In this document: positions 1,504 to 22,893 of the stretch, in pieces
How positions within the stretch are numbered: position 1 is the first letter of the stretch
Layout of the letters: each line of letters begins with the position of its first letter
Assembly (NCBI GenBank): GCA_015488115.1
Contig: WFOK01000038.1
Location: 1-42,848 of the forward strand
Reading direction: 5' to 3'
Source of the DNA: Mariprofundaceae bacterium
GTDB lineage: Bacteria > Pseudomonadota > Zetaproteobacteria > Mariprofundales > Mariprofundaceae
DNA length: 42,848 nt
Made by a program: the position numbers and the translations under genes
The notes under the pieces: model-generated
What the model was told of the DNA's origin: nothing
Databases searched by the model: none
What the model saw: the letters and a program-made list of their open reading frames with translations, nothing else

Positions 1504-1961
1504 CGCAATCGCTCCAGCGCCCGGATGTCCTCGATGTCCTGCGGCCTGCCAGCCTTGCGCTTCATCGCGATGAGCTCTTCGATGGCGGCCACCTTCAGCA
1601 CCCGCCCGAAGGCCTTTTTTTCAACCGTTCTCAACCTCGATGCATCCTCGGTGATGAGGATGTCCACCACCTCCAGCGGATTGGCGGGGTTGCCAAACGA
1701 CCATGCCCGCATGTTCCGCCTGGCAATGAACTCCTCCCGGAACCGAAAGACCTCCTCGGCCGTCACGGGCAGGCGCGGCGCAAGCCCGATGGATGCGAGC
1801 GCTTCCTCGCACCGCTTGAAGGCCCCGGCATCGAGCGCAATCGCGATGTCCACGTCCACCGTGCCCCGCACAGCCCCGTGCAGCGCCAGCGCATAGCCCC
1901 CCACGATCGCGTAGGGAACCTCCGCCCGTTCCAGGGCCTCGACCACCTTCAGGATGAACAT
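1500..1961 (-). CDS. Nucleotidyltransferase-fold protein (MNT/AbiEii-like), putative toxin partner
   Basis: This 153-residue protein has the minimal nucleotidyltransferase signature: GG at residues 21-22, then HGAVRGTVDVD with metal-binding Asp36 and Asp38, and a likely third acidic residue near Asp100 (EVVDIL). Such single-domain enzymes transfer nucleotides to protein or tRNA targets and often occur in toxin-antitoxin or abortive-infection pairs. The ATG at 1961 is the only possible start, because an in-frame TAG lies four codons upstream. No Shine-Dalgarno sequence precedes it, and a promoter places the transcript start near the ATG, so the mRNA may be leaderless. It is followed with a four-base overlap by a ribbon-helix-helix gene. 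The substrate is unknown. Confidence 0.7.
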   Translation of the reverse strand: MFILKVVEALERAEVPYAIVGGYALALHGAVRGTVDVDIAIALDAGAFKRCEEALASIGLAPRLPVTAEEVFRFREEFIARRNMRAWSFGNPANPLEVVDILITEDASRLRTVEKKAFGRVLKVAAIEELIAMKRKAGRPQDIEDIRALERLR

Positions 1962-1967
1962 GCATGG

Positions 1968-1995
1968 AGTCTATATTCGTATATACAGATGACAA
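1968..1995 (-). promoter_or_regulatory. Candidate promoter/operator of the nucleotidyltransferase-RHH pair
   Basis: On the minus strand a -35 TTGTCA (1990-1995) is followed after 16 bases by TAGACT (1968-1973). The predicted start of transcription falls at about the ATG at 1961. The spacer contains the perfect palindrome GTATATAC (1979-1986) within a longer imperfect inverted repeat, a plausible operator for the ribbon-helix-helix protein. This is inferred from motif matching only. Confidence 0.35.
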
Positions 1996-2060
1996 GGAAG
2001 CGGGCAGGTTGCACCGTTCGCCGCTTCCGACTGGCCATGGATATGTTATATCTTCCGGCC

Positions 2061-3209
2061 ATGCCAACCGACCGTCTCCCCAACTGGATCAACGACTGCC
2101 CCTCCCCGGCCTATGTGCTGGAGGAAGCGAAGCTGCTGGCGAACCTGGACGTGCTCGCGCGCGTGCAGCGCGAGGCGGACGTGAAGATCATCCTGGCGCT
2201 GAAGGGCTTCGCCATGTGGGCCGTGTTCGAGCGCATCCGCAAGGTGCTGCCCGGGTCCACGGCCAGCTCACTCTGGGAGCTGAAGCTGGCCGATGAGGAA
2301 TTCGGCGGCGAAAAGCACATCTACGCGCCGGCCTACCGGGATGACGAGTTCGATGAGATCGCGCAGCTTGCCGATCACGTCGTGTTCAACTCGCCCGCGC
2401 AATGGCGGCGCTTCGGGCGGGCGGCGCTCGATGCAGGCTGTTCCTGCGGCCTGCGCGTGAACCCCGGCGTGCGCGAGGTCGCAACCGAGATCTACAACCC
2501 CTGCCGCGCCGGCTCCCGGCTGGGCGTGCGGCCCGAGCAGCTTGCCGGCATGGAGCTGGACGGCATCGAGGGGCTGCACGCGCATGCCTTGTGCGAGAAC
2601 CTGCACGATGCGTCCATCCGCATGATCGACGCCGTCGAGGCACGCTTTTCGGATGTCATCCCGCATCTCAAATGGATCAATCTCGGCGGCGGACACCTGA
2701 TGACGCATGCGGACTACGATGTCGATGCGCTGGTTGCGCGGCTGAAGGCCTTTCGCGAAAAGTGGAACGTCGAGGTCTATCTCGAGCCGGGGGGTGCCGT
2801 GGCCTGGCAGGCAGGCGTGCTCGTGGCCAGCGTGCTGGACATCGTCGAGACCGACCGGCTGCCCGTGGCCGTGCTCGATGTCTCGGCCACCTGCCACATG
2901 CCCGATGTGCTCGAGATGCCCTACCGGCCAGACATTGCGGGCGCGGGGCAAATCGGCGAGAAGCCCTACGCCTACCAGCTTGCCGGGCCCTCGTGCCTGG
3001 CCGGCGACATCATCGGCGACTATTCGTTCGATACGCCCCTGCAGCCCGGTTCACGCCTGGTTTTTGAAGACATGGCACACTACACGATGGTCAAGACGAC
3101 GATGTTCAACGGCGTGCGCCATCCAGACATCGGCTGGCTTGGCGCGGACGGCGAATACCGGCTGCTGCGCCGCTTCACCTACGAGGATTTTAAGTCGCGG
3201 CTGTCGTAG
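2061..3209 (+). CDS. nspC: Carboxynorspermidine/carboxyspermidine decarboxylase NspC
   Basis: This PLP enzyme of the fold III (alanine racemase-like) decarboxylase family removes the carboxyl group from carboxy(nor)spermidine, the last step of an alternative polyamine pathway. The PLP lysine is seen in ILALKGF (Lys48). Further family marks are GLHAHALCEN, NLGGGH, a C-terminal-domain EPGGAVAW and the catalytic-cysteine region SATCHMPDVLEMPYRP. The 382-residue length is normal. I chose ATG 2061, just before the conserved PSPAYVL segment; in-frame ATGs at 2037 and 2043 are alternatives, and none has a strong ribosome site. The usual partner, carboxyspermidine dehydrogenase, is not in the window. 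The gene is convergent with the kinase-RNase Z fusion gene. Confidence 0.9.
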   Translation: MPTDRLPNWINDCPSPAYVLEEAKLLANLDVLARVQREADVKIILALKGFAMWAVFERIRKVLPGSTASSLWELKLADEEFGGEKHIYAPAYRDDEFDEIAQLADHVVFNSPAQWRRFGRAALDAGCSCGLRVNPGVREVATEIYNPCRAGSRLGVRPEQLAGMELDGIEGLHAHALCENLHDASIRMIDAVEARFSDVIPHLKWINLGGGHLMTHADYDVDALVARLKAFREKWNVEVYLEPGGAVAWQAGVLVASVLDIVETDRLPVAVLDVSATCHMPDVLEMPYRPDIAGAGQIGEKPYAYQLAGPSCLAGDIIGDYSFDTPLQPGSRLVFEDMAHYTMVKTTMFNGVRHPDIGWLGADGEYRLLRRFTYEDFKSRLS

Positions 3210-3239: not shown

Positions 3240-5165
3240 TCAGCACGCATCCATCGGCACGTCGGGCCGCCAGACCCTGACGCCGGGAGCGAAACGCTCG
3301 ATCTCATCGAGGAAGCGACCGGCATCCGGCGCATAGCGCTGGGAGAAATGGAAAGGAACAAGCCTGGCCACCTGCGCCTGCGCGGCGATTTCGCCGCATC
3401 CCTTGGTCGTCAGATGGCCCGTGGCCCTGGCCTGCTCCGCGTCCCGGGCCAGGAAACGGGCCTCGCAGAACATCGTATGGGCCAGGCGCGCCAGCCGAAT
3501 CAGGCGCCTGCGGTTCTGGTCGGAATCGAGCAGATCGGTCGCATAGACCCATTTCTTACCCGGACGGATGAGCACAAGCTGCTCGGCCAGCTCATCCACG
3601 CAACGCTCGGAGCCGTCGGGCAGGCGCATGCGCTCCGAGGTCCGCCCGGCGTGGACATGCCTTTTCAGTTCGTTCAGCCAGGGTCCGGGCATCAGCCCCA
3701 GATGCGCAAGCCGTTCCTTGCGCACGTGGATCTCGCCATGAGGCTCGAAGGCATAGGCGAGAACCGGCGTGTGATGATCGAGCAGGCAGGCCCGAACGCG
3801 AAACGCGTCGGACGCCAGCAGCACGCCATCCGTGGCGGGCACGCAGCCGCTGTCTTGCAGCTCGCCGCCCGCCACCAGCCGGAAGCGCCGGATCGTGTGG
3901 CCGTCCCATTCATGCACCTCGAAGCTCGGCGCGCGATCGCCCACCCTGTCCCACAGGATGCCGTCAATCAGCGCCTGTATCCTGCCTGCAAGCCCCGGAG
4001 GTCCGTGGATGCGGCAGCTCGGGAAGGCGCCGATGCGCGAGCGCAGGAACCACAGAAAACCGCCCAGATGATCGATATGCGCATGGGTGATGAACACATC
4101 ATTGACCTGATGCGCGCGACGCGCACTCAGCCTTCCGCCCATGCCCAGATCGAACAGCAGACTGCGACCAGCATGCAACAGGCGGGCATGCAGCAGCGGA
4201 TCGCCGAACACGCCATTGAGCAGCTCGAATCCGACCGCACCGACGCGGCCACACAGTCTGGGACCGGTGGAAGCCCCCGCGTCTCCCGCGGCCTGAGTGA
4301 TAACCTCCTGCACAAACGGAACGGCCGTGCGCAAAAGCCCTTGCGGCGTGCGCTGGGCATCGCGCACGAGCAGCGCATCATCCCGTCCCACGGATGCGGG
4401 CAGACGCACGATCATGCTTCCATCCGAAACGCCGACCACCTCGCCCAGGCAGCGCGTCCTTCCGTCGCGAATCAGGGCCACCTGTCTGCCCGCCCAGGCC
4501 GGAGCCGCGGCAAGAGGCGGAGGCGCCCCGATCAGGTGTAGGTCGCGAATCTCCAACGACTGCTCCCGCGCATGCCGCAGGTACGCATCCCACAAGGCCG
4601 TCCGCCAGCGGGCGCGAAATGCCCTGCCCGGATGGCGCGCCTGCTCGCTGGGCTGGACATGAACAACGCTCAGGCCGCAGGCGTGGAAGACCTGTTGCAG
4701 GGGCAAGGCCTGCTCCCGGCTCAGCACAAGCGCCAGATCCGGCCTGCACAGCTCGATCAGGCCCAGCAGCATCTCCTCGGCCGCCATGCCGCGCACAAGC
4801 CCCGGCGCATCAAGCACGAACGCCTTCTCCTCCAGACCCTCGAGCAGGCGCCGGAGTGCCAGCAGCACGGCAAGGCGAAAGCGACCCGCATCCAGCGAGC
4901 AGACCGCTTCCATATCCTGCACCTGCCAACGGCCCTGACGGCGGACGGCCCAACCCACGCCCCCCGGCACGCCGAACGCTGGCGAGCCCGGATCGGCCGA
5001 AACGGCCGGCAGGCCCGCAAGCTCACACAGGCTACAGGCGAGCGTCGACTTGCCGCTGCCCGCGGCGCCGAACACGAGGATGCGGCGATGTCCGCGAAGG
5101 ACATCGAGCAGACGCTCCGGACTGGCTGCGGAAAACCGTTCCACGCATCCTCCCTGATCAGCCAT
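3240..5165 (-). CDS. Clp1/Grc3-like polynucleotide-kinase domain fused to an RNase Z-like MBL domain
   Basis: The protein has 641 residues in two enzymatic modules. Residues 1-210 carry a P-loop (GAAGSGKST, 33-41), a DPG element (Asp58-Gly60) and VLDAPGL (117-123). Together with the GLIELCRPDLALVL segment these are the marks of the Clp1/Grc3/Nol9 polynucleotide 5'-kinase family. Residues 220-290 look like a small beta domain. Residues 300-641 are tRNase Z-like: HAHIDH (361-366), SVRAC-type LLDHHTP (461-467), LGLMPGPW plus ELKR in the RNase Z-specific region, ATD (542-544), GHLTTKG (583-589) and HFSQRY (606-611). All metal ligands are present. The inferred role is RNA end processing, with a 3' endonuclease and a possible 5'-OH kinase in one chain. 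It starts at ATG 5165, with GGAGG suitably spaced. I know of no described protein with this fusion, but I could not search. Confidence 0.85.
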   Translation of the reverse strand: MADQGGCVERFSAASPERLLDVLRGHRRILVFGAAGSGKSTLACSLCELAGLPAVSADPGSPAFGVPGGVGWAVRRQGRWQVQDMEAVCSLDAGRFRLAVLLALRRLLEGLEEKAFVLDAPGLVRGMAAEEMLLGLIELCRPDLALVLSREQALPLQQVFHACGLSVVHVQPSEQARHPGRAFRARWRTALWDAYLRHAREQSLEIRDLHLIGAPPPLAAAPAWAGRQVALIRDGRTRCLGEVVGVSDGSMIVRLPASVGRDDALLVRDAQRTPQGLLRTAVPFVQEVITQAAGDAGASTGPRLCGRVGAVGFELLNGVFGDPLLHARLLHAGRSLLFDLGMGGRLSARRAHQVNDVFITHAHIDHLGGFLWFLRSRIGAFPSCRIHGPPGLAGRIQALIDGILWDRVGDRAPSFEVHEWDGHTIRRFRLVAGGELQDSGCVPATDGVLLASDAFRVRACLLDHHTPVLAYAFEPHGEIHVRKERLAHLGLMPGPWLNELKRHVHAGRTSERMRLPDGSERCVDELAEQLVLIRPGKKWVYATDLLDSDQNRRRLIRLARLAHTMFCEARFLARDAEQARATGHLTTKGCGEIAAQAQVARLVPFHFSQRYAPDAGRFLDEIERFAPGVRVWRPDVPMDAC

Positions 5166-5188
5166 GCTAGGTGGCCTCCGTTTTTTTG

Positions 5189-5217
5189 ACTATACTCTGC
5201 TTCTGGAGTCTTGTCGC
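5189..5217 (-). promoter_or_regulatory. Candidate promoter of the kinase-RNase Z fusion gene
   Basis: On the minus strand GCGACA (5212-5217, four of six bases of the -35 consensus) is followed after 17 bases by TATAGT (5189-5194, five of six bases of the -10). Transcription would start near 5182, just ahead of the GGAGG ribosome site and the ATG at 5165. The divergent pqiA promoter should lie in the same 73-base gap, but I see no convincing -10 for it. Confidence 0.4.
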
Positions 5218-22672: not shown

Positions 22673-22764
22673 GGAGAGGTACTCGAAGTGGTCATAACGG
22701 CACCGACTCGAAATCGGTTGGGGGCGAAAGTCCCACGCGGGTTCGAATCCCGCCCTCTCCGCCA
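22673..22764 (+). tRNA. tRNA-Ser (anticodon CGA)
   Basis: The acceptor stem GGAGAGG (22673-22679) pairs with CCTCTCC (22754-22760), followed by G and an encoded CCA (22762-22764). The anticodon arm is ACCGA-CTCGAAA-TCGGT with anticodon CGA at 22709-22711, reading UCG. A long variable arm (GGGGGCGAAAGTCCC region) marks a class II serine tRNA, and the T arm has GGTTCGAATCC. Confidence 0.95.
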
Positions 22765-22774
22765 GTTTGTTCGT

Positions 22775-22789
22775 GCCATCACTGATGGC
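22775..22789. repeat. Small hairpin between the two tRNA-Ser genes
   Basis: GCCATC (22775-22780), three bases, then GATGGC (22784-22789) form a perfect 6-bp stem in the 35-base spacer between the tRNAs. It lacks a T run, so it is more likely a processing or spacing element than a terminator. Confidence 0.35.
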
Positions 22790-22799
22790 CAGGAAAAAT

Positions 22800-22893
22800 G
22801 GAGAGATGTCTGAGCGGTCGAAGGAGCACGCCTGGAAAGCGTGTGTACCCTAAAAACGGGGTACCGAGGGTTCGAATCCCTCTCTCTCCGCCA
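22800..22893 (+). tRNA. tRNA-Ser (anticodon GGA)
   Basis: The acceptor stem GGAGAGA (22800-22806) pairs with TCTCTCC (22883-22889), followed by G and an encoded CCA (22891-22893). The anticodon arm is CACGC-CTGGAAA-GCGTG with anticodon GGA at 22834-22836, reading UCC and UCU. The long variable arm (TACCCTAAAAACGGGGTA) is typical of class II tRNA-Ser. Confidence 0.96.

Follow-up and report, generated by a model that had tools for sequence, protein, structure and literature searches.

Why would a bacterium carry, on a single polypeptide, a Clp1/Grc3-type polynucleotide kinase and an RNase Z-like nuclease? The question is raised by a gene on the minus strand of a contig from a Mariprofundaceae bacterium (WFOK01000038.1, assembly GCA_015488115.1). 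The window analysed here, 42,848 nucleotides long, is the whole of this contig (G000:C38), which belongs to a 1.69 Mb genome that is 98.65% complete. The gene forms one uninterrupted open reading frame of 641 amino acids, opened by an ATG. It stands alone in the window, convergent to the plus-strand gene at 1878-3209 and divergent from a pqiA-like gene, also on the plus strand. The original prediction gave it a candidate promoter of its own and no operon partner. A candidate promoter is indeed present, with TATAGT as the -10 and GCGACA as a weak -35 element (5217-5189); the lack of a partner holds for the window but not for relatives in other genomes, as discussed below. The elements that delimit the gene are as follows.

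3240 to 5165, minus strand: complete gene for a Clp1-type kinase joined to an RNase Z-type metallo-beta-lactamase, 641 amino acids (open reading frame, profile matches, an ortholog and 18 other fusions)
5175 to 5179, minus strand: ribosome-binding site GGAGG, nine bases 5' of the ATG (from the sequence)
5189 to 5217, minus strand: candidate sigma-70 promoter, GCGACA-17-TATAGT (9/12 match to the consensus; one found against 0.2 expected)

Elsewhere on the contig, a small minus-strand gene pair at 1243-1961 encodes a BrnA-like protein of 86 amino acids and a nucleotidyltransferase-like protein of 153, possibly a pair of the toxin-antitoxin type.

The fusion at first gave the impression of being a lone example. 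It is instead a recurrent family, with 20 fusions known from this study, as a profile search and a survey of the architecture made clear. An ortholog 83% identical over the whole chain occurs in a second Zetaproteobacterium MAG of the same genus (G003, isolate J030, RFGS01000022.1), and 18 further fusions, all with both domains in one chain, are spread over 13 families of another proteobacterial class, presumably the Gammaproteobacteria. A full-length profile recovered five intact fusions in family f28. A profile of the kinase half, run over 369 genomes of the class to which G383 belongs, gave 14 strong matches in 13 families, and in each case the surrounding frame is 657 amino acids or longer; the chains were extracted from these matches, and that of G957 runs off the end of its contig. 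Among 399 Pseudomonadota genomes, all CLP1_P matches at E 1e-6 or better were to the fusion, in a scan that scored some candidates per genome and could thus miss a standalone Clp1. The ortholog and the 18 additional fusions exclude an artefact of assembly or reading frame; moreover, since several of the fusion genomes are near-complete and in few contigs (nine for G579), the architecture is not a by-product of MAG construction. Two apparent exceptions were set aside: a seemingly two-gene form in G521, dropped as operon evidence on account of a scaffold gap of 10 N between the halves, and a split gene in G110, whose halves lie at two contig ends and reflect an assembly break. A phage or plasmid gene was likewise rejected, no phage match or viral-contig match having been found and plasmids carrying only the nuclease half (21-39% identity), as was a defence system, PADLOC giving no match beyond noise.

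Both halves of the protein are under purifying selection. Set against the 83% ortholog, the kinase half has an omega of 0.15 and the nuclease half one of 0.13 (about 0.14 for both), and the active-site residues of both kinase and nuclease are invariant in 20/20 fusions. An AlphaFold model of the 641-residue chain, built with 20 aligned relatives, reached a pLDDT of 85.8 and superseded an earlier one made from six sequences (pLDDT 71). Searched with Foldseek, the model returned RNase Z-tRNA complexes among the best PDB matches on the nuclease side (2fk6, E 4e-20). On the kinase side it returned 8hmy_E (E 6e-12), 4oi0, 4c0b and 6of2. These matches comprise human CLP1 as part of the TSEN complex, the Clp1 proteins of C. 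elegans and yeast, and Grc3, with E-values from 6e-12 to 1e-9. Given these matches, neither half is a generic P-loop protein or a generic metallo-hydrolase, and the single chain unites the RNase Z and CLP1/Grc3 folds, as anticipated. A PDB profile search based on sequence only had been dominated by P-loop noise.

The first half is Clp1/Grc3-type by profile, by fold and by alignment. Its features, with the linker that ends it, are these.

4575 to 5069, minus strand: CLP1_P polynucleotide-kinase domain, residues 33-197 (Pfam CLP1_P; Foldseek to CLP1/Grc3)
5043 to 5069, minus strand: Walker A GAAGSGKST, residues 33-41, K39 invariant (20/20 fusions, 4/4 other Clp1)
4989 to 4994, minus strand: Walker B-type D58 and P59, SADPGSP where canonical Clp1 has DADxGQK (D58 invariant; the Q61 position is S, N, L, T or M)
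4602 to 4616, minus strand: lid arginines R184-R188 (the same in all 20 fusions and all 4 other Clp1)
4317 to 4553, minus strand: Clp1-type C-terminal beta-barrel, residues 205-283 (alignment to canonical bacterial Clp1; strands in the AlphaFold model)
4254 to 4316, minus strand: interdomain linker, residues 284-304 (pLDDT below 50 at 285-300; highest omega, 0.23)

Pfam CLP1_P scores 43.2 bits on residues 33-197 against a cut-off of 26.6, which is also passed in P0002, G383, G521, G702, G709 and G993; the canonical Clp1 proteins of G977 and G821 align with the window's kinase half at 24-26% identity. The motifs first quoted for this Clp1/Grc3-type module are all present, DPG at residues 58-60 and VLDAPGL at 117-123 in addition to the Walker A sequence. 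Measured against a published list of Clp1 motifs (Walker A GxxxxGK[ST], Walker B [D/E]hhQ, clasp [T/S/L]xGW; PMC6777427), the Walker A agrees (GAAGSGKS, K39 in 20/20 fusions). Of the Walker B, Asp58 is invariant and the glutamine, which canonical bacterial Clp1 keeps, is replaced in the fusions by S, N, L, T or M. The clasp departs from the list: it reads APGL here, with G122 invariant and the tryptophan changed to L or V in the fusions. That tryptophan is missing also from the canonical bacterial Clp1 of G821, G884 and G977 and so does not separate bacterial members of the family from non-members. The lid arginines R184 and R188 are common to fusions and canonical Clp1, spaced RxxxR rather than RxxxxR, and the fold extends to the C-terminal domain, the matches to 8hmy_E, 4oi0 and 4c0b covering 304-344 columns. 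Altogether, the 20 fusions show no variation at K39, Asp58, G65, P67, G122, R184 and R188, and canonical Clp1 has the same residues at these positions. The profile and the structural matches led us to reject an unrelated P-loop ATPase or GTPase, a conclusion with which the alignment to canonical Clp1 agrees.

Whether such a module would still phosphorylate RNA is a separate matter. Kinase activity towards 5'-OH RNA is likely but not certain, because the glutamine of DxGQ and the clasp tryptophan are both replaced. One could envision the P-loop half as a dead kinase, acting as an ATP- or GTP-dependent switch or as an RNA-binding regulator of the nuclease. The loss of the glutamine in 20/20 fusions, the divergent clasp and the lower CLP1_P scores of the fusions (36-55 bits, versus 103-109 for canonical bacterial Clp1) point in this direction, and yeast Clp1 provides a precedent as a known kinase-dead member (PMC6777427). 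However, the Walker A lysine, Asp58 and both lid arginines are retained without exception in the 20 fusions, and the purifying selection acting on this half equals that on the nuclease half, which makes a dead kinase unlikely.

The remainder of the chain consists of a metallo-beta-lactamase domain, for which all RNase Z ligands and the RNase Z-specific PGPW region had been claimed.

3258 to 4253, minus strand: RNase Z-type metallo-beta-lactamase domain, PRK02126-like, residues 305-636 (NCBIfam PRK02126; Foldseek 2fk6)
4068 to 4085, minus strand: HAHIDH metal-binding motif, residues 361-366 (H361, H363, D365 and H366 invariant in 32/32 rows)
3552 to 3734, minus strand: insertion of the RNase Z arm/exosite type carrying PGPW..LK, residues 478-538 (aligned to 1y44, the RNase Z of B. 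subtilis; model helices 483-488 and 495-505)
3348 to 3416, minus strand: stretch from the H584-L-T to the PFH606 motif, with the final metal ligand and the catalytic region (invariant, 32/32)

The claim is borne out. In an alignment of 32 rows (the 20 fusions and 12 further metallo-beta-lactamases), the metal ligands and catalytic residues H361, H363, D365, H366, H464, D544, E568, H584 and H606 occur in every row. The motifs include THAHIDH at residues 360-366 and LGLMPGPWLNELKR at 489-502, and the arm, with its GP region, aligns to that of B. subtilis RNase Z and is helical in the model. Pfam Lactamase_B_2 gives 39.7 bits (cut-off 27). The more specific profiles are matched below their curated thresholds: NCBIfam PRK02126 'ribonuclease Z' (NF002558) at 261 bits (E 2e-77) under a whole-protein cut-off of 315, and TIGR02651 RNase_Z at 97.7 bits on residues 314-628 under an equivalog cut-off of 292.95. 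The fusion of G702 reaches 279 bits with PRK02126, and the standalone proteins of G821 and G207 exceed the cut-off (462 and 393). On these scores the domain appears RNase Z-like, and we do not call it an RNase Z equivalog. The shortfall, together with a weak match to a cyclic-nucleotide phosphodiesterase profile, leaves room for another type of phosphodiesterase, directed at 2',3'-cyclic phosphates, cyclic nucleotides or AMPylated proteins, so that the fusion would resemble the kinase-CPD healing module found in tRNA ligases, or be a signalling enzyme. E. coli RNase Z is itself also a deAMPylase (PMC12663964), and in three genomes (L065, L066 and L069, read by eye) the neighbour of a standalone PRK02126 gene is a CapA-like gene for poly-gamma-glutamate synthesis and no RNA gene. 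Yet the fusion has kept the RNase Z-type arm and the PGPW region, the structures it matches best are those of RNase Z with tRNA and not of enzymes that lack an arm, such as YhfI, and its Clp1 partner points to polynucleotides. We regard this alternative as improbable.

Is the fusion, then, simply the RNase Z of its host? The genome has no other RNase Z-like gene. A search for another rnz yielded one weak extra match, on contig C14, which was rejected as a second RNase Z: by eye it is an RNase J (L072:3956-5704), a type of RNase dependent on 5'-phosphates, which a 5' kinase could supply. If the fusion were the plain tRNA 3'-processing RNase Z, with the kinase head contributing RNA binding or some minor accessory function, its solitary status, its full set of ligands and its arm would be accounted for, as would the fact that its best fold match is an RNase Z with tRNA. 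RNase Z can process CCA-containing pre-tRNAs, in E. coli when other RNases are absent (PMC7479834). The distribution within f28, where canonical RNase Z (30 genomes) and the fusion-type gene (7 genomes) never occur together, would also fit, but this exclusion is not significant (chance about 0.08). The tRNA genes of the host speak against this reading: when the whole genome was screened, and two dubious ARAGORN calls were left out, 41/41 credible tRNA genes encoded CCA, so that RNase Z is not required to expose this sequence. Two tRNA-Ser genes (CGA and GGA), 35 bases apart and both with encoded CCA, lie in the window itself at 22673-22893. In addition, neither form of the gene is present in most Zetaproteobacteria or in 58/101 genomes of f28, two genomes of f35 (G502 and G546) hold a fusion-type relative alongside canonical RNase Z, and the kinase residues are invariant. 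A plain RNase Z is an unlikely identity for this protein. Since the credible tRNA genes come with CCA encoded and the fusion gene is missing from most relatives, an essential part in tRNA 3' maturation is unlikely as well, and there is no support for the idea that the fusion strictly replaces canonical RNase Z, given the non-significant exclusion in f28 and the co-occurrence in f35. We conclude that the fusion is accessory and may help in tRNA 3' processing.

The phylogeny suggests a mobile history. The nuclease domains of the fusion type form one clade (support 100/100) apart from standalone PRK02126. In the nuclease tree, the Zetaproteobacterial pair falls inside the sequences of the other class (89/85, not starred); in the kinase tree it lies near the base. 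Its placement and the absence of the fusion from the rest of the host's family suggest that the pair acquired the gene horizontally. Three copies that lack the kinase, in G619 (L088), G502 (L062) and G546 (L063), nest inside the fusion clade, a position which suggests that they lost the kinase half secondarily. The first residues of the G502 protein look like the end of the Clp1 barrel, and the same seems to be kept in G546.

The two modules also meet outside the fusion. In G821, canonical Clp1 is encoded by an unfused gene (L226 1447-2385), and 79 nt beyond it, in the same orientation and with no N in between, comes an open PRK02126 frame with a likely start near 2516; its score, well above the cut-off, identifies it as a bona fide member. 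The resulting two-gene version of the fusion spans L226:1447-3520. The G821 nuclease is placed outside the fusion clade, and thus the modules have been linked in two separate arrangements. Another neighbour of potential relevance is RtcA, the RNA 3'-terminal phosphate cyclase, an enzyme that modifies RNA 3' ends. In G702 (L214:252-3453) its gene (RTC, 255 bits) immediately precedes the fusion on the same strand, with a gap of 40 nt; as this is one genome among about 18, a functional link is suggestive only. Neither an RtcA match nor an RtcB motif was found in a motif scan of the window's genome. In G709 (L212:2404-2712), a gene for a DUF6763 protein of 102 amino acids (105 bits) shares the strand of the fusion and ends 19 nt ahead of it.

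What might the two heads do together? The analysis establishes the architecture, the family, the conserved active-site residues, the purifying selection and the repeated linkage of the modules; from these we infer both activities, their substrates and the coupling of kinase to nuclease. The Clp1 half would most likely phosphorylate 5'-OH RNA ends, and the RNase Z-type half would most likely cut or trim phosphodiesters near a tRNA-like or otherwise structured 3' end, leaving a 3'-OH. Within one chain, the two might convert damaged or non-standard ends (5'-OH, 3'-phosphate or 2',3'-cyclic phosphate) to 5'-P/3'-OH, and the products could then be re-ligated, matured or fed to RNases that depend on a 5'-phosphate, such as RNase E or the host's RNase J. 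Cleavage by RNase Z leaves a 5'-phosphate. Since its products already carry the group that the kinase would add, the heads would not work in series on one cut, and the kinase should act on ends generated by other enzymes or by damage. The initial proposal of a kinase-coupled RNA maturation or repair enzyme survives in the domain identities and the single chain; an essential role in tRNA 3' maturation is unlikely, CCA being encoded and most relatives lacking the gene. Our preferred reading, to which we give slightly less than an even chance, is a bifunctional, horizontally mobile accessory enzyme of RNA end-processing or repair, not a housekeeping tRNA 3' maturase. The kinase-less copies in G619, G502 and G546, which keep the nuclease half alone, count against it. 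It is tempting to speculate further, more tentatively, that a one-chain nuclease-kinase machine built on an RNase Z-type nuclease repairs or turns over tRNA or structured RNA with broken ends and has spread horizontally as a gene for survival of stress or conflict.

These properties invite comparison with known systems. The prokaryotic Clp1 kinases of P. horikoshii and T. scotoductus share with the kinase half the P-loop lysine, the Walker B-type aspartate, the lid arginines and the C-terminal barrel; the fusion differs in its attached nuclease and in its replaced DxGQ glutamine and clasp. With PRK02126 and RNase Z (RNase BN, ElaC) the fusion has in common the metal ligands, the HLT and PFHFS motifs and the arm with PGPW, whereas its nuclease domain belongs to a clade of its own and scores below both curated cut-offs. 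T4 Pnkp and the healing modules of fungal and plant tRNA ligases, which combine in one chain a 5' kinase with a phosphoester hydrolase and work on RNA ends, offer a functional parallel; the fusion differs in having an unrelated nuclease fold and no ligase domain. RNA repair systems at large have reportedly been reviewed by Burroughs and Aravind in 2016. In the eukaryotic Las1-Grc3 complex, the substrate of the kinase is what its partner nuclease has cut. Las1-Grc3 (PMC10942766) and TSEN-CLP1, whose kinases are among our structural matches, resemble the fusion in physically coupling a Clp1-family kinase to an RNA endonuclease; in contrast, their HEPN or Sen nuclease leaves a 5'-OH for the kinase, while the fusion is one chain with a metallo-beta-lactamase expected to leave a 5'-phosphate.

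A survey found few bacteria with Clp1-family kinases (14 of 1,543 species) and showed that the T. scotoductus protein has RNA kinase activity (PMC6777427). This survey, whose 70% coverage filter could have hidden fusions, makes no mention of RNase Z or metallo-beta-lactamase. In agreement with the original prediction, we found no description of the Clp1-kinase/RNase Z-type architecture in the literature searched, which under-represents subscription journals and may thus conceal a prior mention; nor did that literature yield an established role for bacterial Clp1-family kinases. The fusion is probably a real, uncharacterised enzyme of RNA end-processing or repair. Its recurrent association with an RNase Z-type nuclease, by fusion and by operon, is the first concrete functional link that we have found for bacterial Clp1. 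RNase Z-like proteins would thereby gain a possible role beyond tRNA 3' maturation, and the nuclease-kinase complexes of eukaryotes would have a simple parallel in the fusion, with a direct prediction of two enzyme activities in one soluble protein.
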